This document shows, one piece after another, positions 11,045-49,880 of a stretch of 64,000 nt of DNA. Origin of the DNA: Rhizophagus irregularis (Eukaryota > Glomeromycota > Glomeromycetes > Glomerales > Glomeraceae); contig NC_089445.1 of NCBI RefSeq assembly GCF_026210795.1, positions 1,674,001 through 1,738,000 on the forward strand, in the 5' to 3' direction. The notes under the pieces were generated by a model that saw only the letters and a list, made by a program, of their open reading frames with translations, searched no databases and was not told the DNA's origin. The number at the start of each line of letters is the position of its first letter. Within the stretch, counting starts at the first letter, position 1. Position numbers and translations under genes: made by a program.

Positions 11045-13330
11045 ATATACTTACGAATCTTGATCTTTTGGAAACTCACCAAAACTATAAAAAAAAGAAA
11101 AGAACGGTTAGTAACCGTTCCATAATATTAAAAAAAAGCAAAAAAACCAAAATTCTACTTACGAATCTTTGGTTTTTTCTGTTTATCAGAATCCACTTGA
11201 GACATCAAACCTATAAAAAGAAAAAAAAGAGCGGTTATTAATAACCGTTCATAATAATATTAAAAAAATAAAAAATAAACTAAGATTCGTACTCATACTT
11301 ACGAATTTTGGTTCCACTTTTTCTAAAGATCCCGAAACCTACAAAAAGAAAAGAACGGTTATTAGTAAACCGTTCGTAGTAATAAAAAATAAAAATAAAA
11401 AATAAAAAAAAAACTAAGATTCGTACTTACTTACGAATCTTGGTTTTCCGTTATTCTTCGAAAGCCCACTGAACTAAAAAAATAAAATAAGAACGGTTAT
11501 CAGTAACCGTTCGTTAATATTATAAAAAAAAAATAAAAATAAAACTGAGATTCGTATTTACGAATCTTGGTTTTTTCCATTCTTCGGAAGACACTGACCT
11601 AAAAAAAAAGAAAATGAACGGTTAGAAACCGTTTGTAATAATAAACAAAAATAAAAAAATAAAGATTCATACTGAATCTTTAGTTTTTTCCGTTCCTTGG
11701 AAAGATGGAAATCCACCCGAACCTATAAAAAAAAATCAAAGGAACGGTTAGCAACCGTTCCATAACATTAAAAAAAAGATTCGTAAGTATATTACTTACG
11801 AATCTTAAAGGTTCTCCTTTTTCCGTTCTTCGGAAGTCCACCTGAACCTATAAAAAAAAGAAAAGAACGGTTATTAGTAACTGTTCATTAATAAAATTAA
11901 AAAAAAATTATAAAGTAAAGATTTGTACTTACGAATCTTTACCTTTGGGTTTTCATTCTTCAGAAGCCCACCCGAATCTAAAAAAATAAAGAAAAAACGG
12001 TTATTAGTAACCGTTCGTAATAAAGAAAAAACAAAAAAAAAATTATAAAGTAATAAAGATTCGTATTTACGAATCTTTACTTTTGGGTTTTCGTTCTTCA
12101 GAAGCCCACCCGAACCTAAAAAATAAAGAAAAGAACGGTTATTACACTGGTAAAAAAATGGTCTATCCTACACATATCCTACACATATCTTATATATATC
12201 GGGTACTCAAAATGTAGAAAATCATACACAAATAATACACATATCATACACATATCGGGTACTTATATATATAGTATACCTATCAGGTACCTGATATATG
12301 TATGATATATATATTAGTACCCGATATGTGTATGATATGTGTATTATTTGTGTATGATTTTCTACATTTTGAGTACTCAATATGTGTAAGATATGTATAG
12401 GATAAATCATTTTTTTACCAGTGTATTAGTAATACATTCGTAATAAGAAAAAAACAAAAAAAAAATTATAAAGAAAAGATTGATAACTTACGAATCTTTA
12501 TCTTGGGTTTTCGTTCCCCAACGGAAGTTCCCCCCCCGAACAACAAAAAATAAAGAAAGGAATGGTTATTAGTAACCGTTCATTAATAAAATTAAAAAAA
12601 CAAAAAAAATTAAAACCAAGAAGATTACTTACGAATGCTTGGTTTTTTTCCGTTCTTCGAAACTCGAAAGCCCTCGAGACGCTGAAGCATATAAAAAATA
12701 AAAAGAAAAAGAACGGTTAATAATATTATGCCAATATTAAAAAAATAAACCAAGTTTCGTGTTTATAAAACTTGGTTTTTTCCATTCTTCGGAAGTTACC
12801 CAAACGGCCAAACCTAAAAAAAGAAAGAAAAAAGAACGGTTAATAACCATTCATAATATTAAAAAAAAATAAACCAAGTTTCGTACTTACGAAACTTGGT
12901 TTTTTCCATTCTTCCGGAAGTCACCCGAACGGCTGAACCTAAAAAAAAAGAAAAAAAAAGAACGGTTAGTAACCGTTCATATTAAAAAAAAATAAAATAA
13001 ACTCTAAAGTATTCGTACTTACGAATCTTTAGAGTTTCTGTACTCAAAGACGCGAACGGCCGAACCTAAAAAAAAAGAAAAAAAATGGTTAGTAACCGTT
13101 CGTATTAAAAAAAATAAAATAAACTCCAAAGTATTCGTACTTACGAATCTTTGGAATTCTCATAAGCCCACCCAGAAAACAGTGACATCAAAAAAAAAGA
13201 AAGAAAAAAGAACGATTAGTAACGTTCGTATTAAAAAAAAATAAAATAAGCTCCAAAGTATTCGTACTTACGAATCTTTGGAGTTTACGGAGCTTCGGAA
13301 GCCCACCTGAAAGCTGAACCTATAAAAAAA
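11045..13330 (-). repeat. Tandem array A: about 16 micro-exon/intron-like units
   Basis: Units of roughly 125-140 bp repeat about 16 times, apart from one insertion. Read on the minus strand, each unit has a T-rich tract ending in AG, a core of about 28-49 nt (often starting GTTCGGGTGG... and ending AAGATTC), then GTAAGT or GTAAAT. Two palindromes follow: one spans the 5' splice-like site (AAGATTCGTA / TACGAATCTT); the other is AACGGTTACTAACCGTT and contains TACTAAC. Most cores have GTAAG; two have GTAAA and two have lost the site. Core lengths divisible by three include 36, 39, 45, 45, 48, 48, 48 and 48; others (28, 37, 43, 49) are not. Several cores are open in a compatible phase, for example SGGLLKNENPKVKI twice and SGGLPKNGKRRTFKI. 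Transcription is not shown. Confidence 0.8.
12145..12423. mobile_element. Palindromic element inserted in array A
   Basis: 279 bp with inverted ends CACTGGTAAAAAAATG and CATTTTTTTACCAGTG. It is almost fully palindromic around about 12285, with internal ACACATATC / GATATGTGT iterations. It interrupts the AACGGTTATTAGTAAC palindrome of one array unit. TATTA occurs on both sides (or ATT if the ends include A/T), so the undisturbed site can be inferred from sister units. Confidence 0.85.
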
Positions 13331-13343
13331 AAGTAAAAAAAGT

Positions 13344-13453
13344 GAAAGGGAGGGGAAGGGAAGAAGGGAAAAAGGAAGGGAAGGGAAGGAAGAAGGGAAG
13401 AAGGGGAAGGGGAAGGGGAACGAAGGAAAGGAAAGGGGAAGGGAAGAAAAAAA
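13344..13453. repeat. Polypurine tract
   Basis: An uninterrupted purine run spans 13344-13420 (77 nt). After one C at 13421 another run spans 13422-13453. It is built of GGGAAGG and GGGGAAGGGG iterations. On the minus strand it is a long pyrimidine tract immediately 5' of array A. A homopurine-homopyrimidine mirror repeat can form triplex DNA; that is general knowledge. Confidence 0.85.
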
Positions 13454-13714
13454 TTAAAAAAAGTTTAACTTTTAATACGCATAATGCGTAATGCGTAACG
13501 TTTGATTAAATAATTCAATAAATCGACCATAAATCATATATGTCGAAATTTGGCCGATTTTTAATAATTTCTGAAATTTGGCCAAAATGTGTGACAGATC
13601 AGCTGATTTGTCACATGACTGAAAGTTTTTATTTCGACCAGTGACTATAATAAAATTATAGTAAAATTTTGGAGAAACTAATCATAGAATTTTGGAGAGG
13701 TTTAGGCAGAAAAC

Positions 13715-14007
13715 CTTATTCCGGACATTACATATACAACTCAGTGACAACTTTTTTGTAGATTGACCTAAATTTCACAAAAAAAAAATCAGTTTTTTGC
13801 AATTATCTCAGCATCCAGTGGTCCAATTTGTACAAACTTTTTTTTGTTTTATAGCTCTCATCGCGCTCTACAAAATAAAAAAAATCCGCATGAATTGGAT
13901 CACTGGATACCGAGATAATTGCAAAAAACAGAAAAATAAAAAAGAGCAAATTGGGCCTTTTTTGGCAAAAAGTCAGTTGAGTTCTATAAGAAATGTCTGG
14001 GGTCCTA
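13715..14007. mobile_element. AGGACCCC-ended MITE, eroded copy
   Basis: The right end reads GTCTGGGGTCCTA. The left part CCGGACATTACATATACAAC is its degenerate inverse. The middle is a second palindrome, CTCAGCATCCAGTGGTCCAA / TTGGATCACTGGATACCGAG. The arrangement matches the better preserved element at 44227-44523. The ORF at 13797-14060 is only this repeat read through. Confidence 0.65.
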
Positions 14008-14173
14008 TTAAATATAAATTATTAAATATAATTTTGATAACTAAGTATAAACTTTTTTAAACTATAAAATTTTTAGGACTATTGTAAATGTATTTGTAAA
14101 TATTTACTGTGATGTTAATATTAAATAAAATTAATATTAGAAAATTTTGATTTATTTTATTAAATATTAAATT

Positions 14174-14480
14174 ACCAGGGTATAGTAATTCTATTCATTT
14201 TTATTCTGTTCTATTCTAATCCAATTTTAGTATAATTAATTTTAGTCAATTAAAAATAGTATAAATTGAATAGAAAAATCATGTTCATTCTGTTTCATTT
14301 ATTTTTAACCAATATTAAAACTTATATTGCATTTTTAAATTTTGGAATGCTCAGATCATCAATTTTTTTAATCTGTTATTTTAATTATTATTCCAATTTT
14401 TAAATGAATTTGACTGGCTAAAAAATTTGTCAAAAATTCAAAATAGAACAGAATAGAATAGAAATAAATAGGGCTAGTAT
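14174..14480. repeat. Short TIR element rich in TTCTATTCTATT
   Basis: Left end CCAGGGTATAGTAATTCTAT and right end ATAGGGCTAGTATA are imperfect inverse copies over about 45 bp, including TTCTGTTCTATT / AATAGAACAGAA. No ORF. Confidence 0.5.
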
Positions 14481-14839
14481 ATAGATGTGTACTTATGAAT
14501 TTTATGTAACAAAAAAATTATTGCATATCTGATATAATAATTTATTTATTATTATTATTTTAATGAAATAATAATTCATTAAAATTCTGTTTTATAATAG
14601 CTTTCTGCCAATTCAGTTAAATACAAGTATATAAAGTAAATTCCATTACATTACTTATAGTTAATTAAAGATTGATTATTGAAACTATATTTGGATTTTA
14701 AAAGACTTAATATATATATATTAATCAATTAAAATCTATTTACATGTTAGAAAATGTTTTAAACATTTAATAAAAAACCAGCCATAATGTAATTAAGAAA
14801 TAAATACTAAAATTTCTTTTCAAAGTTTTTTCCTTTGAT

Positions 14840-14980
14840 CAGTGGACAATTTTGGACAGTTCTGGGCAGTTTTGGACAAGTTTTGGACAAGTTTTAGACA
14901 GGATTTTGGACAATTCTCTTATGTCTAAAACCTTGTCCAAAACCTTTAAAGTTAAAAATTGTGTCCAAAACTCATCACTG
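14840..14980. mobile_element. 141-bp hAT-like MITE
   Basis: Ends CAGTGGACAATTTTGGACAG and GTGTCCAAAACTCATCACTG, flanked by direct CTTTGAT (14833-14839, 14981-14987). The interior has several TTTTGGACA / TGTCCAAAA iterations. CAGTGATG at the right end fits the hAT end consensus YARNGNTG. The 7-bp duplication equals that of the 3.15-kb hAT element at 53234-56382. Confidence 0.75.
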
Positions 14981-15383
14981 CTTTGATAATGAATTAATTC
15001 TTTGTGGAAACTTTGCTATATAATAAAAGCAAGCATTAAATAGATCAAGAAATTGTGATTTTAACAGTTTTAATATTACACTTATTTATTATTTGAGAGG
15101 AATTTCACATAATATTTCAATCATTTTGGAATCACATTATCACAATACTTTTTATTTTTACAATAACATTGCTAATTTTCAATATGTAAAATTATATTTA
15201 AGGTATATTATAATAAAGTGTTTGTTAGTAATTTCCTATGTATATTACGAAATTAACAAATGTAGTAATAGCTAACAATAGATGTTATGGCACTTTTAAA
15301 ATTGTTAATAATATCATTGTCATCTGATAGATATATTGAATATGATGCAATATTTTACTACAAACCAACACGCAACGCTTCAA

Positions 15384-15501
15384 ATCACCGGGGGTGATCA
15401 TCACCGTTGGCCGGAATTATCAATTTTTACCGGCACTATATTTTTTTAATGCTGGTCGATCATCATAATTTCAGTCACCGGTGAACATAACCCCCGGTGA
15501 T
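15384..15501. repeat. GC-richer palindromic element
   Basis: Inverted ends ATCACCGGGGGT and ACCCCCGGTGAT, with inner CACCG/CGGTG iterations, stand out from the AT-rich surroundings. Degenerate TTCAGGAAAT iterations follow at 15530-15675. Confidence 0.65.
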
Positions 15502-15820
15502 ATTTAGAAAAATTCTTATTATTATATGTTTCGGAAATTGTAGGATTTCAGGAAATTAGATTCAGGAAATAAGGATTCGGGGAATTGTATATTTCAGGAA
15601 AATGTTCAGTTCAGTATTCAGGTAATTGACTTCGGGAATAGGTATATTCAGGAAAATAGCATTCGGGAAATCGTAGTGTAACCACAATGTATAATTTGGA
15701 AAAAATAAAATACTTGGAAACTCGGTAAGTGATCGTCAAAATCAATTATAACCAGTAAAATGGCGTTTTATTCCCATATAAAAAAAAAGGAAAAATGATC
15801 GGCAAGTGGAGATTCAAAAT

Positions 15821-17395: not shown

Positions 17396-17463
17396 ATGTT
17401 TGATTTAAAATATTTATTTTACTTACTTAAAAATTAATTTGTATTATTGTTATGCGAAATAAG

Positions 17464-20400
17464 CTGTTCCTACTGTTCCTGAAGGACATCTGGAAGAAAA
17501 AGCTAAATCCACAACCGAAAATGTATCTCAAACAACACAATATACAGCCGAGACTGTATCTTCTACACTTGTCAATCTTAAATCAAAAATCACTCCTGAA
17601 ACAACCAAAAAGATCGTAGAAAACCAAAAACCCGATGGTTCTATTAAATTAGACAAAACCGTATCCGATCAAATTAATATCTCTTCTGATAACATACAAT
17701 CCTCAGTTCAAACTTATGGTGTTGGTGACAAAATCAGTCCCAAAGAACGTATGGGAAACAGCCTTGTCACTCCGTTACTTAACCATTACCTCTCAATCTC
17801 AAGATCAACATAAAAACAATCTGAAAAGCCAAGAAGTGCCTTATTGATGAACTCAAAGATGAAAAATTAGTAGAAAAGTTATTAACAACGTCGTAAAAGA
17901 TTATTGTTGATCAAAGTGTCAAAAAAGGAAAGGAAGATGCCGTTTCCACTATCAAAAGCTCTTTTACAACCAAAAAAGCAAAAGAAATGGTATCATCCCA
18001 AAAAGAAGATGGATCCTTAGAACTCCCTGACGGGCGCTGAATCTAATGAATCATTAGTTTCATCCATTAAAACTTATTTCATCAATAAAGGAACGAAAGC
18101 ACCATAGAACAAAAAATTACTTGATACAGCTATAACCTTATCCTTCCTCAGAAAAACATCATCTACTGATACTTCACCAGAATTAAAAGAAAAAGTTGCA
18201 AAAGCAGAAAAATATTTAAAGACTGAATTAGGAAGTGAAGAAAAATTAAAGAATTATTCGATACAGTTGTTGTCGATCATGCAGCAAGAAAGTAATCAAA
18301 GAAAAAGCTGAACAAACGATTGTCCAAGAAATTCAAAAAACTGTAACTAAAGAAGAGATCACAAAAGTCATTGAAATTCAAAATAAAGAAGGTTCATATG
18401 AAAAAATATCCGACAAGATTACCGAAAAACTTGGAGAAATCACAACCGAAAATATATCATCCTCCGTCCATATTACTGATGAACATGTCAAAAAATTTGA
18501 TACCAAAGTATGGAATACATTTATAACAATTGCTTACTGCAATAAAGTGTTAAGAAAACAACAATCAAAAGTGACAACTCCGAATGAAAAAGCTCTCACT
18601 TGGTTGCATACTCAAATTAAGGATGAAAAATTAGTAAAAGAAGTTTTAGAATCTTGTGAGAAATTAGTAGTTGAGAAAGCTTCTAATAAAAAGAAAGAAT
18701 CTTCTTGGCCTTCTTTGTCTACTTCTTTGACTGGTTGGGGATCTAGTTGGGTAAATATATTACCGATACAGCTAAACAAACAACCGAGGGTGTGTCTGAT
18801 TTGATACAATATACAACTGATGCTGTATCTTCTACACTAATTAATCTTACCACTCCTGAAACAACCAAAAAGATCGTAGAAAATCAAAAACCCGATGGTT
18901 CTATTAAATTAGACAAAACCGTTTCCGATCAAATCAACATCTCTTCTGATAAAATACAATCCTCAATTCAAACTTATGGTGTTAGTGATAAATTAAAATC
19001 AGTCCCGAAGAACGTATGGGAAACAGCCTTGTCACTCCGCTACTTAACTATTACCTCTCAATCTCAAGATCAACATAAAGATCAATCTGAAAAAGCCAAA
19101 AAGTACCTTATTGAGGAACTCAAAGATGAAAAATTAGTAGAAGAGTTATTAATAACGTCGGAAAAGATTATTGTTGATCAAAGTGTCAAAAAAGGAAAGG
19201 AAAATGCCGTTTCCACTATCAAAAGCTCTACCACAACCGAAAAAGCAAAAGAAATAGTATCATCCCAAAAAGAAGATAGATCCTTAGAACTCCCTGACAG
19301 GCGCTTGATGTTGAATCTAATGAATCATTAGTTTCATCTATTAAAACTTATTTCATCAATAAAGGAACGAAAGCACCAGAGGACAAAAAATTACTCGATA
19401 CCGCTATAACCTTATCCTTCCTCAGAAAAACATTATCTACTGACACTTCACAGAATTGAAAGAAAAAGTTGCAAAAGCAGAAAAATATTTGAAGACTGAG
19501 TTAGGAAGTGAAGAAAAAATCAAAGAATTATTAGAAAAAACCGATACTGTTGTTGTCGATCATGCAGCCAAGAAAGTAATCAAAGAAAAAGCGGATCAAT
19601 CGGTTATCCAAGAAATTCAAGAAACTGTAACTGAAGAAGAGATCACAAAAGTCATTGAAATTCAAAATAAAGAAGGTTCATATGAAAAATACCTGACAAA
19701 GTTACTGAAAAACTTGGAGTAATTACAACCGAAAATATTTCATCATCCGTCCGTATCACTGATGAACGCGTCAAAAAATTTGATACCAAAGTATGGAATA
19801 CATTTATAACAATTGCTTACTGCTAGGAAAACACAAATCAAAACGGACAGATCAAAATGAAAAAGCCCGCGCTTGATTGCATGAGCAAATCAAGGATGAA
19901 AAATTAGAAAAAGAAATTTTAGAATCTTGTGAAAAAATAGTAGTCGAGAAAGTTTCCAATAAGAAAGAAAAAGAAAAAAGAATCATCACCTTGGTTCAAT
20001 TTGTTACCCAACTGGGGTAGTAGTGATACCACAAAACAAACAACAATAAAGAAAATCGAATCCATTCCTGTAGCTCCTACCACCAGTACAACAAAATCCC
20101 CAGAAAAACCTAAAGAAAGCGTAGTTAGTAAATTGGCTGAAAAGTTTTCCGATACTTCTAATACTGGTTCTCTTAGTACTGTAAGTCTGCAGCACATCCC
20201 AAGAAAGATACTAGAGAAGTTCAAAAAGATCAACCTACTCCTGCCAAACCTGAAACTGAATCTAAAACGAAACCTGGATAGTTTGATAATATTGCTACAA
20301 GTGTTGTAAAATTAAGCAAAGATATTGAAGACGCAATCACCTGGGACGAGAAAGATGATGATGATCATGATCATGAAAAAGTCGATGCTCTTGATACAGT

Positions 20401-23400
20401 TAAAACGTCATCTACGACCAAAGAAGTTATCCAGTATGTAGTATCAAAACAAAATGACGATGGTTCTATTGAGGCTGGCGAAACCGTTTGTAAACAATTA
20501 GATGCACCTCCTAAAGAAACAATAGTGACTATTGTTCAACAATATATCACCAATGAAAAACTCAAAAACACAAAACCTATCTGGATTACTACGGCCGTAA
20601 ACATTGCATACCTCAAAAATTTAGCGGACCAGCATGAAGGTGAATGGAAAGAAAAATATGCTCGTCAATATTTAACTAAAGAAATTGGAAATCCTAAAGA
20701 AGTGGATGAATTAATAGACGCTTCTAGCAAATACGTTGTAAAACAATCGACTCAAGAAGTTATTAAAGATAAAAAGAAAGCAGCTGTTCTTGCTATACGA
20801 TCATCAACCCCAAAGAAACCGTCAATAATGCGATATCATCTCAGAATAATGATGGATCTTTTGGAATAAGCAAAACGATCACCAAAGAACTTAATGATAC
20901 TTCCCCTGAGGATTTAGTCAAAAAAGCGATAAAATTAAACCTAAAAATTCCGATTTTATCTTTAAAACAGCACTCATGCTCGGATATCTACGTACAGCCA
21001 CGACAGATACGGATAATCCTTCAAGTACCGAGGGAATACCTTAGCTCTCAAATTAGAGATAAACAACTAGAGGAAGACATCATAAAAGCATCAAGCAAAG
21101 TAGTAATTGACAAAAGTTCAGAAAAGGTAGCAGAGGCATCTAAGAAAGAAGCTTTAAAAGAAATACAAATTACCCCTGAGATCACTAAAATTATTGTTTC
21201 AACACAAAAAACTGATGGTTCCTTTGAAGTTAGCAAGGAAATTACCGATAAGCTCAATTCTACCTCTCCTGAATCTCTAGTGACCTCTGTAATAACTTAT
21301 ACCAAGAATGATAAACTCAAAAATATTCAACCTTCGGTTTGGCAAACCGTTATATCAATGTAAGTACACTACCCAACCTTATATAAACTCATTTTTTTTC
21401 TTCTATTCTAACTTATTTTTTCACATTTTATTTTAGGCAATATTTGAAAAATACAGCTAGCCAATACGAAAATGATTGGAAAGACAAGTACAATAAAGCT
21501 GAAGAACATGTTCGATCTCAGCTTGGCGGAGATGATAATTTAGTGAAAGAACTTTTTTTTGACTTCAAACAAATATTTTATTGATCGTGTAGCAGTTAAG
21601 GAAAAAGAAGAAAGAACTCTTCAAGTATATTTGATGAAGATACAAAGAACACAACAATTTCCGTTTTGAAAGGAGAATACATCGTTGATGATGTTCGTTC
21701 AATATGTTCATCTCAGAAAAATGATGGTTCAATTACTCTCCATAAATCAATCAAAAACCAATTTAATGTCTCCAGCACTAATCGGTTAATTACGAATGTG
21801 AAAAGTTACATTAGTAACCAGCATTTAAGATCATATGATGATTCGGTCTTTGAAACTGCGCTCACAATTTATATTTTAAGATATGTTCTTGTTGAACACA
21901 AAGGTGAAACTCAAGCTGCCTATGAACGCGCTAACTCTTGGTTGAGTAAACAACTTAATAACAATAAAGAATTAGAAAAAGAATTATTTAGCGCATGTGA
22001 ACAATATGTGATCGAAGAAGGCTCCAGAAAAATTGAACATGTAATTGTAAAAGAAATAGAAAAGGTCAAACTTGAAGTTTTCAAAGACACTCCAAACTGT
22101 GCTTAAATATCTTCAAGAACGTTCCATCCTTGATGACGCTCACGCAATTCGCATATCTCAAAATAACGATGGCTCTTTCACCTTACATTCATCAATTCTT
22201 GAACAATTTAAAATTTTATCAATTGACGAATTTATTAAAGGAATTACTCGTTATGTTGGCATCAAAAATCTAAAGAATTGTGACAAATCAATCTGGCAAA
22301 CTTTATTTACTATTACATATTTCAAATAATTTTTAGTTGATTACGAAAGTGAATGGCGTAACATTTGTGAAAAAGCAAATAAATAGGTAGTCAGTAAACA
22401 ACTTAAAGGGGAGTTGGAAGAATTAGACTCTGCCTGCGACCAATATCTGATTGAAAAAGCTGTGGAGGCTTATAATAATCAAACCATAAATGTTCAAATT
22501 ACTAAGCTTGATGTAGATGAAACAACAAAAACTACCATATATAACATATATAATGGACTTAGATCTGATGCTAAAGTTGACCATGCTCTTTCTTTATGCA
22601 AATCCCAACATAACAATGGATCTTTCACTCTTCACAAAATAATTTCCGAACAACTCAAGATTTCTTCATCCGAAGAAGCTGTCGAAACTCTTAAATCTTA
22701 TGTTGGTAGTCTACGTTTGAGACGTCTTGATAAGAGTCTTTGGATATCTGCATTTATTGTCACCTATTTCAAAATTGTTTTGTTTGAATACGAATCTGAG
22801 TGGCGTAAAGCCTGCGATCGTGCAAGTACCTGGATCAGCGAACAAGTCCATAATTCTGATTTGGAAAAGAATTATATTCAGCTTGTGAACAATATTTGAT
22901 TCAACAAAGTTGCGAATTTCTTAATAGCAAAAATACTACCATCGTCACAGAAGTTTTACATAAACCTTCTCAATCTGTTATTTATGGATCTGATGATCGT
23001 GCTGTAACACAAAAAGAATATTATCTTAACTCCGAATTGATTGTAACAGGAGCAGCTGCCAGGGCAAAATGTAAAGTTGAACTTGAAAGAGCCCAAATAA
23101 TACCTTAGAAGATGTATCTAAAGCTACTGATTTGGCACTCAAGTATACCGAAGACGAAATTAATAGATTATTTGATAATAATGTGACTCATGGTAATAAA
23201 GATAATGTCTTAAATCGAGCTAAAAGAGCCACTAAATTTTTGATGGACGAATATTACAAATCAGGTGGATATTGTTGGTAATATTATATTAGTTTTTTTT
23301 AAAAAAATTGAACATTTTCAATCATCGACTACTGAATTACTGAGTTACTAAACATCAAAATTTTAACGTTAATGTTTGTAACATTTTTTATAAAGATAAT

Positions 23401-26239: not shown

Positions 26240-26600
26240 GTCATTATATTATCACGTCTAAAATAATTTCTACCTCGTTTAAATTTGTTTATATTTTAAT
26301 ATTTAAACTTATTATATTGTCATGTCTAAAATTTGTTATACTGTCTACACAGTCATGTCTAAATTTTATTATAATTTCATTACACCGTCACGTCTAAATC
26401 TTATTATAATTTCATTACACTGTCACGTCTAAATCTTATTATAATTTCATTATACCGTCATGTCTAAATCTTATTATAATTATTTTGTTATACTATTATA
26501 TCTAAATCTTATTATAATTTTATTACACCATCACATCTAAAGTTTTTATAAACTTGTTATCTGTCATGTCTAATACTATCACATCTAAATTATTAGTTAT
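26240..26600. repeat. Imperfect tandem repeat, GTCACGTCTAAA units
   Basis: Units of about 44-46 bp of the type TCTTATTATAATTTCATTACAC plus YGTCACGTCTAAA repeat about eight times with growing divergence. The same TCACGTCTAAAATGATT motif appears at 7424-7440 in another element. Confidence 0.75.
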
Positions 26601-26693
26601 TACATGTTATTTATTACAATTAAGAGATAAATTTTCATGTTGTATTTATTTATAAAATTAAGGATCTAATTTATAATATGAAAAAATGTATTT

Positions 26694-32379: not shown

Positions 32380-34920
32380 CTTTTTATTTTAAAGGATAGC
32401 TAGCTCTCTTAGGTTAGTTTCAGGAGTTTCAGATTCCCATTTAGAAGAACTTCAAAGGTAATACTTCAAAGTTCTTTTTTTTAACAAACATTTCACTAAT
32501 GTTCATTTTTCTTTTATTTTTTTGTAGGTCCAGAATGCTGAACTGGACTTATTTCAAAAGTAAAACTTTGAAAAATATTTTTTTTTAATTAATTATTAAC
32601 AAATGTTAACTAACGTTCGTATTTCTTTTTTTTTTAATTAAAGAAAGTGAAACTGAGTTCTGGACTCTTATATCAAAGGTAAAACCTTTGAAAAAAAATT
32701 ATAATTTATATTGATGAATGTTAACTAATATTTTGTCTCATTTTTTTTAGATAAAGAAAGCTGAAACTAAGTTTTGGGCTCCCATATCGAAAGTAAAACC
32801 TTCAAAAATAAAATAATTTTTTTAAAAAAAAATAATTTATATTGATGAATGTTAACTAACGTTTTGTCTTATTTTTTTAGTTAAAGGAAGCTAAAAGACA
32901 AGTTTGAACTTCCATATCGAAGATAAAACCTTTAAAAATAAAATATTTTTTTTTTAAAATAATTTATATTGACATTAACTAATGTTTTGTCTTATTTTTT
33001 TTAGTTAAAGAAAGCCAAAAGACAAGTTCAAATTTCTATATCGAAGGTAAAACCTTCAAAAATAAAATATTTTTTTTTTTAAAATAAGGCCATACAAACT
33101 TGATTTTATGGTTTTCATAATATAAAAATTTCATCAATAACCCAGCAACCCGGCTTTTAATTTTTTTTTTCAGAAATTTTATATGCGAAATTTTTTTCAA
33201 TTTTAAAAAATTCTCACCCAGCATAGTAATAATATAAAAAATTTTTTTTTAAGATTTAACAAAACTGACCCGGCCGAACTATGAAAACCATTTTTACCAC
33301 TTTGTATCACCTAATTTATATTGACGAACATTAACTAATGTTTCATCTCATTTTTTTTAATTAAAGGAAGCTGAAAGAACAAGCCAGACTTTCAAATCAA
33401 AGGTAAAACCTTTGAGAAATTGTTTTTTTTTAAATTAATTTATATTAATAAACGTTAACTAACATTTGTATTTCTCTTTCTTTAGGTAAAGGAAGCTGAA
33501 AACAAGTTTCAGACTTCTATATCAAAGGTAAAACCTTCAAAAATTAATGAAACGTTTTCTAACATTTCATTTTTATATTTTGTAAGAACACAGCACTCTG
33601 GACGCTTTCTGGACAGAATTTTGAAGGTAAACTTCAAAATTCTGTTTTTTTGTTTTTATTTAAACAAAACGTTTACTAATGTTTCAGGTATTTTTTTTTA
33701 TAGATTTTAATACTTTAAAGTTTTCAAAACGGATAAAGAGTAAGTAGTAAGTTTTGTAACGTTTCGTTGCAAAACTTTTATAATTTTTTTTATAAAAGAA
33801 CATTTTTAACGTTCTTTATTATTTTTATTTTGTAGGTTCTGATACTTCAAAGTTTCCAAAATGAAAAAATAGTAAGTTTCACAACATTTCATTATGAAAC
33901 TTTATAATTTTTTTTTATTTTTTATAAAAGAACGTTTCTAATGTTTTTTTTTTTTTTAAGTTTTCAGCTTCTGAACAGAATTTTAAAGGTAATACTTCAA
34001 AATTCTATTCTTATTTTATTTAAACGAAATGTTAACTAACGTTTCAGTTTTATTTTTGTAAATTTTCAGCTTTCTGAATGCCTTTAGGATGAAATTTCAA
34101 AAGTAAAACTTTTGAATTTTTAGTTTTCTCTTTTTATTTAATGTTCACTAACGTTCATATTTCTTTTTTTTTAGGTAAAGAAAGCTGAAAGACAAGTTCC
34201 GAACTCTCATATTGAAAGTAGTAAAACTTTGATTTTTTTTTCTTTTTTATTTAAACAAACGTTTACTAACGTTTGTTTTTATCTTTTTTTTTGTAAATCT
34301 AGAATATCGGCTCTCTTGGATGGGAATTTCAAAGGTAATTCTTTGAATTAATTAATTTATTTTTTTTTTTATTTAAATAAAATATTAATTAATACTTCAA
34401 TTTTCTATTTTTGTAGATTTATAGCTTTTTGGGTGGCATTTTGAAGGTAAACCTTCAAAAAAATATTTTTTTTTATTTAACGAAACATTACTAATATTTC
34501 ATTTTATTTTTTATAAGTTTTGGTTTTACTGCTTTTGACGGAATTTTGAAGGTAAAATTTCTTCAAAATTCTTTCATATTTTTTTATTTAAGCAAACATT
34601 TTCTAATATTTCTTTTTTTTTGTAGGTCTTCATTATTCTGGATACCTTCTGAAAAGAATTTTGAAGGTAAAACTTCAAAATTCTTTATATTTTTTTTTAA
34701 TTTGCAAAACGTTTACTAATGTTTCAGGTGTTTTTTTTGTAGAGTTTTTGTTTTTTGGCTCCTAGACGAAAGAATTTTGAAGGTAAACTTCAAAAAAAAA
34801 TAATTTTTTTTTTTATTTTTATTTAACGAACGTTAACTAATGTTAGTTTTTATTTTTGTAGGTCCAAGACGCTAAAGGTACAGTCTCAGACTCAATAATT
34901 TTAAAGGTATTGCTTAGACG
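32380..34920 (+). repeat. Tandem array B: about 20 micro-exon/intron-like units
   Basis: About 20 units of roughly 115-135 bp on the plus strand. Each has a T-rich tract ending in AG, a core of about 21-45 nt, then GTAAAAC or similar. Core ends and GTAAA sit in a hairpin, TTTTGAAG-GTAAAA-CTTCAAAA. The spacer has AACGTTTACTAACGTTT-like palindromes whose ACTAAC lies about 20 nt before the next AG (for example 32852-32860 before AG 32879-32880). Clear cores are 32751-32792, 32881-32922 and 33005-33046, all 42 nt; the first spacer is 88 nt. Five or more 42-nt cores read in one phase as 14-residue, two-heptad-like peptides such as VKEAENKFQTSISK and LKKAKRQVQISISK, though one has a stop. Other cores are 21, 30, 33, 36 and 45 nt or not divisible by three. 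Confidence 0.8.
33088..33311. mobile_element. 224-bp Harbinger-like MITE inside array B
   Basis: Ends GGCCATACAAACTTG and CACTTTGTATCACC are inverse copies over about 35 bp, with TATGGTTTTCATA / TATGAAAACCA inside. Direct TAA flanks (33085-33087, 33312-33314) restore the array unit when one is removed. A TAA/TTA 3-bp duplication is the PIF/Harbinger pattern. Confidence 0.8.
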
Positions 34921-35302
34921 CTGGATTTTGAAGATATTTATTTACTTTTAATCTTTTACTAGGACTTTAACTACATTTATTTTGTTAATTGTTTGTTGGA
35001 ATCAAATCAACTGGAACAATGTCCAAACCATTAATAACTTATGAATTTGAAGTAAAGATGACGGAACTTTGATTTTAGTGTAAATAATTAATAAACATTT
35101 TTTTTTCTTTTATTACTTTCAATATGTAATAGATTTCATGTATTTTTTTTTAATTTTGTAAATATTATTAATTATTACATGCTCATTAGGATTATTGTGA
35201 ATTTATTGTACGTATTTTGTTATCGTACCTAATATTTTTAATGATTAATGTAATATAATTATATTAGCATACATCTAATCCTAATATCACATATAATAAT
35301 AT
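34921..35302. other. Region after array B
   Basis: After the last core-like segment (GTCCAAGACGCTAAAGG..., open for 15 codons) no long exon is evident. A short frame from ATG near 35020 reads SKPLITYEFEVKMTEL then stop. Confidence 0.3.
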
Positions 35303-38930: not shown

Positions 38931-39731
38931 GCGTGAGAATTTTCAGTCCACCAATTTACTATATATGTCAGTTACTGCACATGTTACCCCAATTTTTTTT
39001 TATTATGATGGCCATATTAATAATTATGGCGCATTTGCTTGGGAATTTTTTTCTTTAAATTAATGATTTTCGAATATATAATTCTGGCCAAAATTTTCTT
39101 AATTCTGGCAAAAATCGTAATTCCGGCTTAAATTTGGGTCAAATGTAACATTGCAATTTATACAATATAATATTTTAACTGTTATCATTCAAAATATTTT
39201 TAAGAACCAAATGAACATTTTGATAAATTTAAAAGTCAAAATATTCAGTAAATTCAACTTGGATCTTTCCATTTTTTACTAATAATAAAACATTAAAAGT
39301 CGCCATCTAGTGATAATAAAAAGATGAATTATAGCTCGTTCGAATCGTCGGTCCCAATGTAGTGAAATCGTATTTCTATCTATAATGGATGTTGAGTTGA
39401 AGAATGCATGTCTAGTGATAATTAAAAGATGAATTATAACTGATTTGGTTTGACGGGACCGTTCATGCAATTTTTATAATAAACTCCCGTTACTATCCAA
39501 TAATTTTATTATTATGCTAATACATAGTAATATGACATTATAAAATCTGCATGAACTTATGATAATTTTAATATGGCTATCGTAATAAAAAGATTTATTA
39601 CATTTAAAACCTGTTTGGCGTAACTTTTTATATCCGTCATTGCAAGTAAACAATGACTACCATATTTCGCAAAAAATTCATTATAAAAATAATAAACCAA
39701 ACAACATCAAATTCACACAAAAAAAATAAAA
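38931..39731. promoter_or_regulatory. Upstream region of the P450 gene
   Basis: AT-rich, no gene. A direct repeat TCTAGTGATAATNAAAAGATG occurs at 39306 and 39411 (105-bp spacing). The leader before the ATG is A/C-rich (CAAACAACATC...CACACAAAAA), a common fungal 5' UTR style. No TATA box can be assigned in such AT-rich DNA. Confidence 0.35.
39306..39443. repeat. Direct repeat upstream of P450
   Basis: Two copies of about 33 bp (TCTAGTGATAAT, AAAAGATGAATTATA) are spaced 105 bp apart, with AGCTCGTTCGAATC-type sequence after the first. The GATGAATTATAGCTC motif recalls GATGAAATATAGCTC at 4136 in the fold-back element. Confidence 0.6.
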
Positions 39732-41419
39732 ATGCCTATTCAAAATATTATCGAATCCATTAAATCTGCTAATACTATAGATTTATTCATTTTAATCTTT
39801 GCTACTTGTATCTCTACCTATATCTTTAACTTTTATTACAAATACTATACTCGTCCCAATCCACTTCCTGGACCATTTCCTTTACCATATATTGGAAACG
39901 GCCATAACTATGGCGATGTAAAGAAATTTTATGGACAATGTCAACAAAAATATGGAGATATTTGTGAATTGATGCTCGATCGCAGATATATCATTCTTTC
40001 ACGGCCAGATTATATTATAAAACTCTTTGCTCCGCAGCAATTTTTCATGAGACTTCCAAATTCTCCAGGTACAGTTGAATTGGGAATGTGCAACCATGGA
40101 CTTTTCTTCAATGAAAATTATAAAAGTTGGAATTATAATAAACAGTTCTTTACTGAGGCATTGTCAACTAAATTTATTGATGCATCTATAATACCAATAA
40201 ATCAAATATATGAAGAATTGTGCGGTTATTGGGAATCCCTTGGAAAGCAAAATGCTTCAAAGAAGAAGAATAACGATAATAATAATTGGACATTAGAAAC
40301 AGATTTTTCAGCATGGTTTCACGGATTTACTAATGATGTTACTTCAATACTTTCCACTGGAAAACGCACGTATTCAATTACTTCTTACTATAACACACTA
40401 AGCATCAACAAATCCGAAGTTCCTGATGCGCTAGTTGAAGATGGAAACAACTTTGTCAATGCACTCTTAAAATTTCTTGAAAGCCTCTTGTTTTTCTCGT
40501 TCTATAGCCCTTTTACTAGACATTACATTCCAATGTTCAGAAGCAAATCAAACTCTTATTTAAATAACCGTGATTACTTGTATAATAAATTTGATAATAT
40601 TATTAAAATGAGAAGAACTGAAATCGAAGAAATGCCAGAAACAAGAATGAAAACAGATATGCTTACTTCTTTAATGACAGCAGAAACTATTGTTGAAGGC
40701 GAGAATTTTAAACCTATGACTGATAAAGAGATAAGAATGAATTTGCTAGATATCTTTTTGGGTGGATCAGATACTGTGAGTATTACTTTTCTCTCTAATA
40801 TATAATATTTTGATTATTGATTTCATATTTAATTCTGTTTACTATAATTTAGACTGCTGACACATTTTGTTTCATGACCTACTACCTTTGTAAACATCCC
40901 AATGTAAAAGAAAAAATGCTTTCAGAAATTGATTCTATTATACCTAAATCTTCTGGTAAATTTTGCTTATCATGCAACGATCTCAGAAAACTTAAATATT
41001 GTGAAGCTATCATTAAGGAAACTACTCGTTTAATGCCACCGTTACCTTTTACATTCCGTCACACTACTAGTGAATGTGAAATTGCAGGATATAAATGGCC
41101 AGCTGGTACAGATTTTCATATAAATTTTGAAGGAGCACAAAAACATCCTAAGTGTTGGGATAATCCTAAAATTTTTGATCCAGATAGGTTTTATAACAGT
41201 GATAATAATGACGATAGATCTGCTTGGATGCCGTTTGGTGGAGGTAAACGTATATGCCCCGGAAAAAATCTTGCAACTACCGTGTTACTTTTATTATTAT
41301 CTTCAGTTTATAAAAATTATAATGTTGAGTTAGCGAATGAGCATGAGCCATTGAAAGTTCATACTCAATTGATTTCTAACTGTACAGAGTTGAAAGTTAG
41401 AATTAGTCCTCGAACTTAA
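39732..41419 (+). CDS. Cytochrome P450 monooxygenase, complete, two exons
   Basis: Exon 1 is 39732-40775 (348 codons) and exon 2 is 40853-41419. The 77-nt intron is GTGAGT...TTTAG in phase 0 and falls inside the I-helix oxygen-binding motif GGSDT|TAD. The joined protein has 536 residues, a normal P450 length. An N-terminal membrane anchor (about residues 17-37) is followed by the proline hinge PNPLPGPFPLPYIGNG. The K-helix ExxR is KETTR near residue 404, followed by FDPDRF. The haem loop FGGGKRICPG has the Cys thiolate ligand near residue 483. All catalytic signatures are intact, so an active, ER-bound, NADPH-P450-reductase-dependent oxygenase is expected. The substrate is unknown and the CYP family cannot be set from sequence alone. 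No cluster partners are seen. Confidence 0.95.
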
Positions 41420-43092: not shown

Positions 43093-43156
43093 TAGGACCC
43101 CAAACATTATATACATAACTCAGATCTAAGGTCAAAAATTTTAATATAACTTTATA

Positions 43157-43869: not shown

Positions 43870-44690
43870 CTGTTGTGAAAATACAAATGTTTTCACAAGT
43901 ATTATACTAATGATTACGAAAATTTAAATCTAAATAGTTTCGAACCTGCTGAACAACTTTCAATTAATAAAGATAGTCAATTTCATAAAGGTGCCAAAAT
44001 TACGTTCTGAAGTTACTGATCAGGTGATTAAAAAAAAATTGAGAGTGCGAAAATTGCTCGTATTCCATAAGTATTACTCCGATTACTATAAAAATTTAGG
44101 TGTAGGTAGTTCTGACCTCTGTGAACAATTTTCTCTTAATAAAAAAAGTCAATTTCATTTGACTAAAATGCCGTAATTACGCTCCAAAATTAATAAACAA
44201 AAAAAGCAAATTTAAAATTAATATAATAGGACCCCGGATATCTCCAAAACAGGTCATAAGTCACACTTTTGGCAGATTGGCCCATTTTTCAGGGCTTAAA
44301 AAATCATTTTTTATAAATATCTCAGCATCTAGTGGTCCAATTTTGATGAACTTTTTTTTAAATTGTAGAGCTAAATAAGGGTTACAAAATAAAAAAAATT
44401 CATTAAAATTGAATCACTGGATGCTGAGATATTTACAAAAAACAATTTTTTGAGTTTCAGCAAAAAGGGGTGTTTTTGGCCAAAAGTCCATTATAACCTT
44501 TATATTAGATATCTGGGGTCCTAATATAATTATAAAAATATGCGCGTACTCTATAAGTATTACTCCAATTGCTATGAAAATTTAAATTTGAGTAGTTTTG
44601 GCATCGTTAAACAACTTTCTCTTAATAAAGAAAGTCTTTCATTTGGCTAAAATAGTAAAATTACACTCCAAAGTTTGACGAAAGTAAAAA
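43870..44690. repeat. Diverged tandem repeat of 5.7-kb type
   Basis: Three or more units of about 160-180 bp contain AAGTATTACTCC, TTTAATAAAGAAAGTC, ATTTGACTAAAATG and AATTACGCTCCAAA. They match units at 5640-6010. The element 44227-44523 is inserted between units. Confidence 0.7.
44227..44523. mobile_element. 297-bp AGGACCCC-ended MITE
   Basis: Inverted ends TAGGACCCCGGATATCT and AGATATCTGGGGTCCTA are flanked by direct ATATAA (44221-44226, 44524-44529). An inner palindrome CTCAGCATCTAGTGGTCCAA / GAATCACTGGATGCTGAG is shared with 13715-14007. A bare copy of the inner palindrome lies at about 45913-46025. Confidence 0.85.
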
Positions 44691-45004
44691 GAAAAAATTT
44701 AGGAATAAAATGTATTATGAATTATATAAAATATCCATATCTTCATGTAATAAAAACTGTGATAAAAGTATTTAATATGTGCTAATTTGTAAATTTATAA
44801 AGTTTTTAAAGAAAAATTATATATATATATATATATAATTTATTTACACAAGTATTGTTATACAAAATAAAGATTTCACTTGATTTAAGAATTATCACTG
44901 TTATACAAATACATATCTGACTTACCAAAAAATTACTAACAGGCTATACAAAATCAAAAAAATGCCTTATTGGAAAATTATATAATAAGTTTATACAAAA
45001 CTGG

Positions 45005-45862
45005 ATCCCAGTGTTATATGTATTGTTCAGGGTTTTAGCACGGTACATCAAGTATGATAAAGATCTAAACTACGAAGCAAACTCCATTTTTATAGTTCAG
45101 GGATAATTGGCCTGTACAGGCAGATATAATGGTGCTAACGTCTAAAAGGCCTTTCATAGTAGTTTTAACTGAAATGGTCTCATTCAAAGCCCATTACAGG
45201 CTGCGATTACCATTCCAGCCCACCATAGTTGTCAATCCCCAATAGTGTAGTAGTAACTATCAGGATAGTAAGCTCTAAGGGTATAGGATCTCCTATATTA
45301 TAAGTGACTTACCTCAGCTACCCAGGGTTTACTAGCCAATATACCAAATACGCTGAGGAATCGAATCTCACCTCAAAACCTTATATATCTGTGAGCCGAT
45401 GAACATCAAAGTTGGTCTAAATCTATTAGAAGGTAAACTACTACAAAGATATTGCACCTAAGATTTTACCATCTATGAACCCCATCTAGTAGTGTGTGAA
45501 CCCCCACAGTAAAGTTCAATACACCCTTAGTGGTATCGTAGAGTGACCACCAAGACAAGAGTCCATCCAGGTAGTATGTAAGCAGTGACTACTGAGACAG
45601 GACAATTGACTTACTATTGCTTCAGTCTCAGAATGAAGGACACCATGACTCTCTATTAAAATGTGCAGTCTAACTGTACACACTGATACACTATAATGCA
45701 ATCCATACTAATCTTATAACTCCACTTCAACGATATAGTATTTTCGCATGCAGTAAAATTCAGTACAGATTCTGTGATCAACCAGAATTGAACCTGCGTT
45801 CTCACCATAATCAGGCTTCATGAGGGACTCACGGACTAACCAATGAGCTAAGGGTGATCAAC
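45005..45862 (-). mobile_element. GC-richer block with tRNA-like end (candidate SINE)
   Basis: About 850 bp with far more G and C than the flanks and no ORF. On the minus strand the 5' part (45862 to about 45775) contains TTAGCTCATTGGTTAG, an A-box-like motif, and about 45 nt later GGTTCAATTCT, a B-box-like motif. The order and spacing are those of an RNA polymerase III internal promoter. The acceptor stem does not pair, so it is not a functional tRNA gene. A tRNA-derived head plus a long unrelated body is SINE architecture. The far end was not defined and no A-tail is clear. Confidence 0.5.
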
Positions 45863-46423
45863 CCTAAAATACAAATATATTATATTAATATATATATTAT
45901 AATACAATTAGTTTGCTATCTAATAATCCAATTTGTATAAACTTTTTTTTGTTTTGTAGCCCTATTTATGCTTTATAAAATAAAAAAAAATTGTTGAAAT
46001 TGGACTGTTAGACGGTAAAATAATTGCAAAAAAGCTTATTAATAAATAAATTACTATATATTAATGATGCAGGCGAAACTAAAATATTTCATCACATGAT
46101 GTAATCGAAATATATTTTGTTTTAAATTCTGAAAATCTGAAATATTTCATCATGTGACATGTGTTTCATCATTGATAATCAAATGATAATCAAATTAATT
46201 AATTAAATTATAAAAAAGATTTGATTATATACCAATAACTTATAATTACATATTTACATTAAAAAAAATAGAACAAAACCTCTGAATTTATTGTGAAATA
46301 CTGAAATGTGAATAGTATACTTGACTGTTCATTTCACCTAACACAATTTTTCCCCTTTACCCCTTAAATTTATTGACTATATATTATAATATCGCGTTAT
46401 ATTTTCATATTATTTTATAAAAA
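45863..46423. other. AT-rich spacer with a bare MITE centre
   Basis: 45913-46025 matches the inner palindrome of the AGGACCCC MITE (AATCCAATTTGTATAAACTT / TTGAAATTGGACTGTTAG). At 46070-46165 an inverted TTTCATCACATGATG / TTTCATCATGTGAC pair occurs. No gene. Confidence 0.45.
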
Positions 46424-47098
46424 ATGGACTCTTTATCCCAACAAAAAAAAAGAAAACTTAGTGGTTATTCTCAAAGTAAAGTATGGAAACATTATGAAAA
46501 AACACCTATTAAATCATCTCCCAGTTATTTTTCAGCAAAGTGCAATTACTGCAAAAATGTTTAGGCTCGTGTAAAGATGTTAACCTTAATTATTTTTAAA
46601 AAATTTTGAATTACGGCTATAAGATTTTTATAGCCTTAATTAATTACGGTATATAAAAATTTTGTATTACGACATTTTTTTAAATTACGGCTAACATCTT
46701 TAGGCTCGTGGTCATGTGCATGAATTAGAAGACCACTTAGTTAACTAATGTAAAGAGAGTCCAGAAATTGTTTTTTCATTTTATTTAGGCATAATTTCTT
46801 CACGAGACTTTGGAGACCAAGATACAACTATTCTCTTATCAGATTATAAAAAAAGAAAAACTCAGTCAAATCAGCAAGAGTTAACTGATTGGTTTAATTC
46901 AATAGATTTATCTTCACAAAAAGCACCTTCTAGTATTCGTATACTTGTACGTGCATTTACATGTTGTGGTATTCCATTTTCAATTATTGAGAATCTATTT
47001 TTTATTGAATTTCTTAATAAAATAAGACCAGGATATGTGATACCTTCGCGTAATGTACTTAGTGGTAGACTTTTAAATCAAGAAACATCAAGGCACTA
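46424..47098 (+). pseudogene. hAT-type transposase, BED-finger N-terminal fragment
   Basis: From ATG 46424 the frame reads SKVWKHYEKTP, then YFSAKCNYCKNV, TAG, ARGHVHELEDHL. With the TAG read as Trp and the 131-bp insertion removed this is a BED zinc finger (C-x2-C followed by H-x-H). It continues to WFNSIDLSSQKAPSSIRIL and ENLFFIEFLNKIRPGYVIPS, the region before the catalytic core of hAT transposases, then ends after LLNQETSRH. The catalytic core is missing. A further stop lies near 46746. It complements in content, but is not joined to, the C-terminal hAT remnant at 6.6-9.5 kb. Confidence 0.75.
46572..46702. mobile_element. 131-bp hAT-like MITE in the BED finger
   Basis: Ends TAAAGATGTTAACC and GGCTAACATCTTTA are flanked by an exact 8-bp duplication GGCTCGTG (46564-46571, 46703-46710). 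TAAAGATG fits the hAT end consensus YARNGNTG. Removing the element and one flank restores the transposase frame. Confidence 0.92.
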
Positions 47099-47459
47099 GT
47101 CAGAATAGTCCATTTCAGCAAAATTTTAAATTGCCAAATGTTAGACGAAATTTGGTCTGACCTTAACCGATCAGTACCAAAAATCGGCAACTAATTTTAT
47201 AAACGATTTGCACTGTAACACCTGCCATTTGTCAACAAATCGATCAGTAAAATTGGCAACAAATCGGTAAAATCAAATTGACAATTGTTAATAAACCTAA
47301 TAATTATTATTGATTTTTGTACATTTAGCTGATTTTAATTTTTATAATAACAATTTATTGATTAAATTTTATTAATTCATTTTATTAAAAATTGCATATT
47401 AAATTATTATCTATCTATCATTTATATACACCATTTACCATCCACCATTTATTATCCAC

Positions 47460-49880
47460 CCATAATCCTCACCTAACCTGATAAAAGTCTGAAGAAAACT
47501 ACCAAAAAAAGGAGAAAACAGTCAATAACTCATTTTTTAAATAAAAAAATTGGGTTTGAAAGAAATTTACCTGATCTGATAAAATCTGAAGGGGAAACCT
47601 ACAAAAAAAGTAAAAAAATGGTTGGTCAACCATTTCTTTTAATAAAAAAAATGAAGTTTCAAAAATTTTTTAAAACTTTACCTGGAATATCAGTATTCAC
47701 ACCAGAACTGATTTTCTATAAAAAAAATATAAAAAAATCGTTTTTTAGCTAAAAACGTTTTTTTTAAGTAGGTTTTGAAAATCTATCAAAACATTACCTG
47801 GGGAAACGGTAGAACTGATTCCTTATAAAAGAAAATAATAAAAAAACATTAATATAACATTTTTTTTAATAGTTTCAAATTTTTTTTCGAAACTAACCAA
47901 TGGGATCGGTATTCAAGTCAAAACCGTTTCCTTACAATAAAATAATAAAAAAAAAATGTTAATAAACATTTTTTTTTAAATAGTTTCGAATTCTTTTTCG
48001 AAACTAACCAATGAGATTCAGTATTCACGCCAAAATTGATATCCCTACAAAAAAAATAAAAAAAACGTTAAAATTAATATTTTTTATTAAAGTTTTGAAA
48101 TTGTTCAAAATTTGCCTTTGGGATTCGGTATTCACGCTGGAACTAAATTCCTATATAAAAATAATAAAAAAAAAACGTTTTAATATAAAAACGTTTTATT
48201 AAAAAAAGTTTCGAAATTTTTTTTCAAAACTTATCTTTGGGATTCAGTATCCACGATGGAACCGATCACAGGTCAAAATTAGTTAAATAGGGTATCAATA
48301 GGTTATCAATAGGTTATCAATCGGCTATCAATAGGCTACCCTATTGGTAGCCTATTGAACTTGCGCCATAATCCGTCACCAATCGGGCAGGCTGATTGAT
48401 AACCTATTGATAACCTATTAATACCTTATTGATAACCAATTTGATAAAAATACCAATAGGATACTAATAGGTTATCAATAAGTTATTAATTGGCTAACAA
48501 TCAGCCTGCCCGATTGGTGACGGATTATGGCGCAAGTTCAATAGGCTACCAATAGGGTAGCCTATTGATAGCCGATTGATAACCTATTGATAACCTATTG
48601 ATACCCTATTTAACTAATTTCGACCTGTGGATATCCCTATAATTAAATATAAAAAAAAATGTTAAAATAAACGTTTTTTTTTAAATAAGTTTTGAAACTT
48701 TAGTTTTGAAACTTACCTGAAATATCGGCATCCATGTTGGAGCTGATTTTCTATATTAAAGTATAAAAAAATGTAAGAAACGTTTTTTTTAAAGAAGTTT
48801 CGAAACTTTAGTTTCAAAACTTACCTAGAATATCGGCATCCACGTTGGAGCCGATTTCCTATATTAAAGTATAAAAAAAAACATTAAAAACATTTTTTTA
48901 AAGAAATTTCAAAACTTTAATTTCAAAACTTACCTGGAATATCGACGTCCATGTTGGAGACGATTTCCTATATTAAAGTATAAAAAAAACGTTAGAAATG
49001 TTTTTTTAAAAAAGTTTTGAAACTTTTAGTTTTGAAACTTACCTGAAATATCGGCATCCGATTTCCTATATTAAAATATAAAAAAAAAATGTTTTTTTTA
49101 TTAAAAAACGTTTTTAAAAAAGTTTTGAAACATTTATTTCGAAACTTACCTGGAATATTGGTATCCATGCTGGAACCGATTTCCTATTATAAAAAATAAA
49201 AAAAAAACATTTTTTTTATTAAAAAACGTTTTTAAAAAAGTTTTAAAACATTTGTTTTGAAACTTACCTAGAATATCAGCGTCCACGTTAGAGCCGAATT
49301 CTTATATAAAAAAACAAAAAAAATGTTATAAATATTTTTTTTATAAAGTTTCAAATTTTTTTTTGGGAACTGATATCCCTATATAAAAAATAATAAAAAA
49401 AACGTTTTTAGTATAAAAATGTTTTTTATATATTAAAGTTTCAAAATTTTTCAAAACTTAACTTTGGGATTCAGTATTCACGCTGGAACTGATATCCCTA
49501 TATTAAAAATAATAAAAAAAAACATTTTTAGTATAAAAACGTTTTTATTAAAGAAAGTTTCAAAATTCTTTTTTCGAAACTTATCTTTGAGATTCGGTAT
49601 TCACGCCGAAACTGATATCCCTATAATTAAATATAAAAAAAACATTTCATTAAAAACATTTTATTAAAAAAGTTTTGAAACTTTAGTTTTGAAACTTACC
49701 TGGAATATCAGCGTCCACGTTGAAGTCGATTTTCTATACAAAAATGAAAAAAAAAAACGTTTTTAATATTAAAAAATGTTTTTTTTATAAAGTTTCGAAT
49801 TTTTATTTCAAAACTTATCTGAAACATCGGTATTCATACCGAAACTAATTTTCTGCAAAAAAAAACAAAAAAAAAATGTT
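47460..49880 (-). repeat. Tandem array C: about 20 micro-exon/intron-like units
   Basis: Minus-strand units of about 110-125 bp. Each has T-rich sequence ending TATAG or TGTAG, a core of about 24-36 nt, then GTAAGT (also ATAAGT or GTTAGT). The palindrome AAGTTTCGAAA...TTTCGAAACTT begins inside the 5' splice-like site. A second AAACGTT...AACGTTT palindrome carries (C/T)TAAC. Two core types alternate in blocks: 34 nt (AAATCGGCTC...GATATTCCAG) and 36 nt (GGATATCAGT...). In one frame both read as related 11-residue peptides, KIDFNVDADIP and DISFGVNTESQ, but the 34-nt type would shift the frame. At the minus-strand 3' end (47460-47690) cores are shorter and diverged. Array C is interrupted by a fold-back element. 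Confidence 0.78.
48267..48629. mobile_element. 363-bp fold-back element, CACAGGT family, copy 3
   Basis: Arms CACAGGTCAAAATTAGTTAA and AACTAATTTCGACCTGTG form a long palindrome with repeated TATCAATAGG / CCTATTGATA and GGCAGGCTGATTG blocks. It sits inside an array C core (ACCGAT | ATCCCTATAATT), with GAT on both sides (48264-48266, 48630-48632). Sister units show the empty site, so the duplication is 3 bp. Confidence 0.92.

Follow-up and report, generated by a model that had tools for sequence, protein, structure and literature searches.

Hairpin-rich mini-exon arrays of Rhizophagus irregularis, probable members of a dispersed gene-like family residing partly in CACTA-like elements

Introduction

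What could account for three tandem arrays of short exon-like cores and palindromic spacers lying close together in the genome of a fungus? The arrays, here called A, B and C, lie within a stretch of 64,000 nucleotides of the Rhizophagus irregularis genome (146.7 Mb, 32 contigs; C17:1674001-1738000, hereafter the window), and the assembly of strain DAOM197198 is reported at 146,773,001 bp (Manley 2023, PMC10234402). An earlier note on this DNA held that all three share one architecture, with one hairpin at the donor and another around the branch point of every unit, that many more should be found genome-wide, and that either Dscam-type competition between RNA structures or introner-like transposons lie behind them. 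We consider it probable, at roughly two chances in three, that the arrays of the window are decayed copies from a large gene-like family of mini-exons that is dispersed in the genome, resides partly in CACTA-like elements and is spliced where copies are intact. A literature search, with preprints and most subscription journals outside its scope, found no description of arrays like these. Array-like loci outside the window are labelled L022-L050; these labels and those of unit types D and E were coined in this analysis.

Architecture of the arrays

All three arrays are ordered series of mini-exons and GT-AG introns, each array on a single strand (Table 1). The introns are mostly ~75-100 nt long, and exon lengths are not a multiple of three in 58 of 107 exons. 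In array A the donor GTAAGT sits inside hairpins of the ATTCGTAAGTACGAAT type, array B has donor hairpins of the TCAAAGGTAAAACCTTTGA type and branch-point hairpins of the AACGTTAACTAACGTT type, and in array C the donor lies at the foot of the hairpin rather than in its loop, several donors there having decayed or been lost (GATAAG, GGCAAA). The two hairpins previously assigned to each unit are thus present, with the placement of the C donor corrected. That the arrays have no obvious sequence in common was too strong a statement, as by eye the branch-point hairpins of all three resemble AACGNTT..CTAAC..GTT, a likeness that pairing around CTAAC in part imposes. An insertion with inverted arms breaks up every array, and in array B these arms are only 74% complementary. 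Many of the differences between units, in the arrays of the window and in L029-L036, look by eye like substitutions of CpG by TpG/CpA, such as the decay of methylated copies would leave.

Signal order was scored with a unit caller that requires, in this sequence, a donor in or at a hairpin, a branch-point motif in a hairpin, a pyrimidine tract and AG. Counts on the sense, antisense, mirror and mirror-antisense sequences are 9/0/0/0 for array A, 12/1/2/0 for B and 3/0/2/0 for C, and the whole window gives 14+19 against 6+12 in the mirror. The 18 further loci, which were chosen for their resemblance to the arrays and are not a random sample, yield 154 units on whichever strand scores better and 23 on its complement, and the two mirror strands add up to 25; seven of the 23 lie in L028, whose overlap partner L027 has a second array in the opposite direction. 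Chance is a poor explanation of the order, as twenty systematic 10-kb samples of the genome (200 kb) have no general excess (21+25 against 25+27 in the mirror), and arrays A and B do. As sequence signals go, the GT donor, branch motif, pyrimidine tract and AG of a U2-type intron follow one another in order, against the antisense and mirror controls. The shared architecture is therefore borne out, clearly so for A and B and weakly for array C of the window on its own.

Folding of the donor regions agrees with these counts. The mean z-scores are -4.3 for A (11 of 14 below -2), -2.5 for B (8/15) and -2.2 for C (6/10), against -0.34 (n=109), -0.14 (n=150) and, for GTAAGTTT, -1.33 (n=17) at control donors. 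A measure that demands a hairpin across the donor misses array C (stem score 9.0, against 9.4 when shuffled); strong donor hairpins are present in the C-type introns of the gene model on L036.

Deposited gene models

When the exons of L022 are joined and translated, they match 22 deposited proteins, and a B+C query matches 33, every one of them with an R. irregularis name; splicing, isoforms and exon joining are seen here at the level of such deposited models. Models were compared with the loci by spliced alignment without mismatches, which reports one path of possibly several. Residues 167-309 of OCT59_026262 align to L049 with 8 introns, residues 1-187 of the 203 of OCT59_002092 to L036 with 17, and residues 17-266 of RIR_jg17074.t2 to L050 with 15, each with 0 mismatches. 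Residues 1-16 of RIR_jg17074 found no placement in this alignment, and exons of 3 nt (L036) and of 4 and 5 nt (L050) may be aligner artefacts. An alignment screen (runs of at least 45 amino acids, introns up to 250 nt) placed only P0130 and P0135 of the 55 proteins on the fetched loci.

The introns of the three models use the hairpin sites. The donor hairpin score is at least 16 in 30 of their 40 introns, against 119 of 1484 random GTA[AG][GA] sites; the genuine-gene control, a single P450 intron, scores 11.5. Among the 29 caller units that fall within the models, 20 donors and 26 acceptors agree exactly, and three donors lie exactly 4 nt upstream of the model donor. The models join up to 18 exons, OCT59_002092 chaining C-, A- and D-type units, so that short exons spliced in series, as in micro-exon genes, are seen in gene models only. 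RIR_jg17074.t1 and.t2 differ in the hairpin-loop donors used and in the units skipped; the variable isoforms that had been anticipated exist to this extent, as two models rather than as reads. In the annotation procedure described by Maeda 2018, models were built with RNA-seq intron hints and deposited if they had expression, homology or motif support (PMC6123716). The OCT59 models appear to annotate the assembly studied here, and would then be the Manley 2023 annotation, a project for which the use of RNA-seq is also described (PMC10234402).

These results bear on an alternative in which the arrays are non-coding transposon repeats, with palindromes that are features of the DNA (binding sites, or quasi-palindromes corrected by template switching) and an intron-like look that gene predictors use and the spliceosome rarely does. 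The dispersal of copies within elements bounded by terminal inverted repeats (TIRs), described below, fits this, as do the symmetrical decay of the stems and a frame openness close to that expected from composition. It is countered by the one-strand order of donor, branch motif, T-tract and AG, which holds across unit types with different arms against the antisense and mirror controls, and by the use of hairpin sites in models built with RNA-seq hints. We judge it unlikely, though deserving of serious weight.

Genome-wide spread

The expectation of many more copies is confirmed. With up to 2 mismatches, the A branch-point hairpin occurs 499+472 = 971 times in the genome, against 25+24 = 49 for the reversed pattern, and the C-type (332 nt) and B-type (446 nt) queries have 189 and 72 genome matches respectively. 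Extrapolating from motif counts and clusters, the loci of this mini-exon set probably number in the hundreds. Unit type D occurs together with A and C, chained in one locus (L034, L036), and in these C/A/D chains unit types are mixed between loci; type E precedes B in L038, L040 and L042. A further unit type, with donor hairpin GTAAGTTTCGTTTTAACGAAACTTA and branch hairpin AAACGTTCTTTAACGTTTC, lies beside the A-type element at L027 2250-3017. Two of the eight sources scanned, the B-type loci L038 and L049, end in a common stretch, CCCCAAAAAATTTCCC, which is possibly the end of another element.

Transposons around the arrays

Elements of the CACTA/CMC superfamily have inverted ends beginning CACTA or CACTG and a 3-bp target-site duplication (TSD). 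Array A lies inside an element with both features (Table 1), within which there is no stop-to-stop open reading frame (ORF) of at least 130 amino acids. A second CACTG element has CCA on both sides, its ends at C1:4308923 (L026) and C1:4311847 (L027) being taken as those of one element; the superfamily features are seen in these two elements only. A CACTG-type TIR also lies past the 3' end of array C, and its partner was not found at up to 3 mismatches. Genome-wide, the TIR CACTGGTCGAAATAGTCC occurs 108+128 times with up to 2 mismatches, against 1 for the control. Among 100 listed TIR ends, one lies within 4 kb of 8/60 A clusters and of 12/40 C clusters, where shifted controls average 0.44 and 0.32; for B clusters the figures are 2/36 and 0.16. 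The Plavaka transposase domain (PF18759) has 123 matches in the genome. A- and C-type arrays are at least often carried inside CACTG-ended, CACTA/CMC-like transposons, which are apparently non-autonomous. CACTA/CMC (EnSpm, Plavaka) transposons are described in R. irregularis (PMC11075540). CACTG ends and a 3-bp duplication are superfamily features that the array A element shares, and Plavaka domains are present in this genome; the element differs in having no ORF of the length given above, and cargo arrays go unmentioned in the portion of that description available.

A transposon with TIRs had been suggested before in the form of introners, each intron being a transposed element inserted in a gene. 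Introners in other organisms, as characterized in the part of the literature consulted, tie DNA-transposon features to introns and can have TIRs and TSDs (PMC9860276), and palindromic proliferating introns are described in other fungi (PMC8469720). The R. irregularis TIRs and TSD, in contrast, are found at the ends of a whole element that encloses many exons and introns, and by eye the intron ends are not inverted repeats. Array introns occur together with repeated exons, and because the neighbouring exons are repeated too, it is whole units that were duplicated. A TIR transposon is involved, and the idea fits the element as a whole but not single introns; we regard separate insertion of each intron as highly unlikely.

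Returning to the dispersed mini-exon family, we envisage each locus as a series of mini-exons, most of them ~20-55 nt long, in which every exon precedes a short U2-type intron with its donor in or at the foot of a first hairpin and its branch-point motif in a second. Tandem duplication of exon plus intron units would enlarge the arrays, unit types would mix, and CACTG-ended transposons would spread the A- and C-type arrays. Intact copies would be transcribed, and the ordinary spliceosome would splice the transcripts, skipping units with broken sites and sometimes using a donor 4 nt further on; the products may be translated.

Pairing between units

The arms within one array are mutually complementary, and in a Dscam-like arrangement the arms of different units would pair and so select the exons that are joined. 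Whole-array folds of six sources do contain pairs spanning more than 150 nt (194/758, 272/813, 269/868, 226/1010, 292/1034 and 360/1138, or 22-34%), and the two models of the RIR_jg17074 gene use different units. Set against this, a partner lies within a few nucleotides of most arms: donor hairpins are local in 42/57 units of these folds, and branch-point hairpins in 32/57. The models take in many units at once rather than a single array exon, and no distinct docking sequence was noted in the arrays, though no dedicated search was run. With stems that also decay symmetrically, the Dscam-type competition proposed earlier is unsupported, and we hold it to be extremely improbable. The hairpins may nonetheless slow or vary splicing: in GAACGGTT-ACT-AACCGTTC the stem takes in the branch A of CTAAC, so that a formed hairpin should hinder splicing.

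Reading frames

Frame presence was scored with loose regular expressions derived from frame translations, the A expression being the loosest and one C expression also matching B-type proteins. On this measure an A exon appears in all three frames in 12/22 A-query proteins and in at least two in 21/22, and a C exon appears in three frames in 21 of the 33 B+C-query proteins, in two in 1, in one in 7 and in none in 4. Exon lengths modulo three (0/1/2) are 49/31/27 of 107, a weak lean, and 4/12 joined exon chains are fully open. A second GT occurs at +4 in 36/50 A-like donors, all 36 having the consensus GTAAGT, and the doublet is not special in itself. One could imagine frame-rotating exons, in which mini-exons whose lengths are not multiples of three follow one another in series, a single protein contains one exon in each of the three frames, and the +4 donor in the loop switches frame between isoforms. 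We find this doubtful, and lowered our estimate slightly further because the +4 donor belongs to the ordinary GTAAGT consensus. If true, frame-rotating exons on transposons would amount to a mobile means of generating protein variants.

Evidence against splicing and coding

Several observations weigh against the proposal that the arrays belong to a spliced, gene-like family. Gene predictors favour sites that keep a frame open, which makes the models partly circular as evidence of splicing, and P0086 and P0087, annotations of seemingly one locus, disagree. Array C of the window is marginal by itself, both in its caller counts (3/0/2/0) and in a folding z barely past that of the closest control (-2.2 against -1.33), and the CACTG TIR is not linked with B arrays. 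Among 852 stems from 21 array sources, positions that depart from Watson-Crick pairing on the sense strand are G.U in 342 cases and A.C in 360 (p=0.52). Decay of these copies thus follows the pattern of DNA, RNA pairing shows no sign of being kept, and selection on sense-strand pairing is not seen.

The exons are open in all three frames in 29/98 cases on the sense strand and 35/98 on the antisense, where a second-order model gives 26.7 and 29.8; since this openness is close to composition and even higher on the antisense strand, it is not evidence of selection. Stops in exons number 123, against 161.5 under a first-order Markov model, and are similarly scarce on the antisense strand (109 against 139.2), so coding selection was rejected as a reading of their scarcity. 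An unusually long open run is found in only 1/12 chains (L022, 118/118 codons, p=0.015).

Comparison with known systems

In the micro-exon genes of schistosomes, proteins are varied by exon choice and exon lengths are mostly multiples of three. Those of Schistosoma mansoni resemble the arrays in having many short exons in series and in being restricted to one taxon, and are described with exons of 3-81 bp between long introns of up to 5 kb (PMC10526429). The R. irregularis introns, at ~75-100 nt and with hairpins, differ from these, as do its often non-triplet exons, tandem layout and partial carriage by transposons. The internally symmetrical stwintrons of the Hypoxylaceae are likewise fungal spliceosomal introns with inverted-repeat structure that have proliferated; in the account consulted, a single 45-55-nt inverted repeat extends across the intron ends, with no flanking duplication seen (PMC8469720), whereas the introns studied here have two local hairpins and belong to tandem exon plus intron units. 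SP7-like effectors of arbuscular mycorrhizal fungi are also repeat-bearing genes of this fungus, described with one conserved intron ahead of the first repeat, not one per repeat (PMC11333574). The SP7 and AGL families were rejected as a match, the structure described for them being different.

Other features of the window

The features of the window, including the neighbours of the arrays, are collected in Table 1. An Rfam scan of the window gave 0 matches at the gathering threshold.

Table 1. Arrays, associated transposon features and neighbouring features, in positions of the window
Feature	Positions	Strand	Remarks
Array A	10990..13330	-	exons mostly ~35-50 nt, donor GTAAGT in hairpin loop, GAACGGTTACTAACCGTTC-type branch-point hairpin, T-tract, AG
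Array B	32380..34940	+	several 42-nt mini-exons, others 30-44 nt
Array C	47480..49900	-	mini-exons mostly 34 nt, hairpin starting at donor (GTAAGTTTCGAAAC..GTTTCGAAAC)
CACTG-TIR element enclosing array A	10673..13643		2,971 bp; TIRs at 10673 (CACTGG) and 13629-13643 (inverted copy ending 13643)
Target duplication ACT, left copy	10670..10672		3 bp
Target duplication ACT, right copy	13644..13646		3 bp
CACTG-type TIR past 3' end of array C	47094..47108	+	3 mismatches
Inverted-repeat insertion in array A, like a miniature inverted-repeat transposable element	12140..12428		ends CACTGGTAAAAAAATG
Probable insertion in array B	33082..33317		38-nt ends, weakly inverted (74%)
Foldback insertion in array C	48267..48629		175-nt arms, 93% complementary
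Terminal-exon-like stretch after array B	34963..35070	+	by eye like the conserved last exon of B-type gene models (..VGIEPTGT..)
Several long ORFs with recurring DGSIE-like pattern	18250..22899	+	two tested, without Pfam match
Minisatellite	26311..26616		35-nt units
Cytochrome P450 gene	39696..41419		two exons; first exon (39729-40805) 99% identical to R. irregularis protein
hAT-type transposase remains	53410..55665	-	Dimer_Tnp_hAT at its cut-off, DUF659

Significance

Should the arrays remain untranslated, probably hundreds of loci supply the R. irregularis proteome with unstable gene models, affecting counts of lineage-restricted genes. If they are spliced and translated, the family would allow a test of how hairpins at the donor and the branch point affect splicing, and it would provide a root symbiont of many plants with variable proteins from loci spread across the genome and carried in part by transposons.

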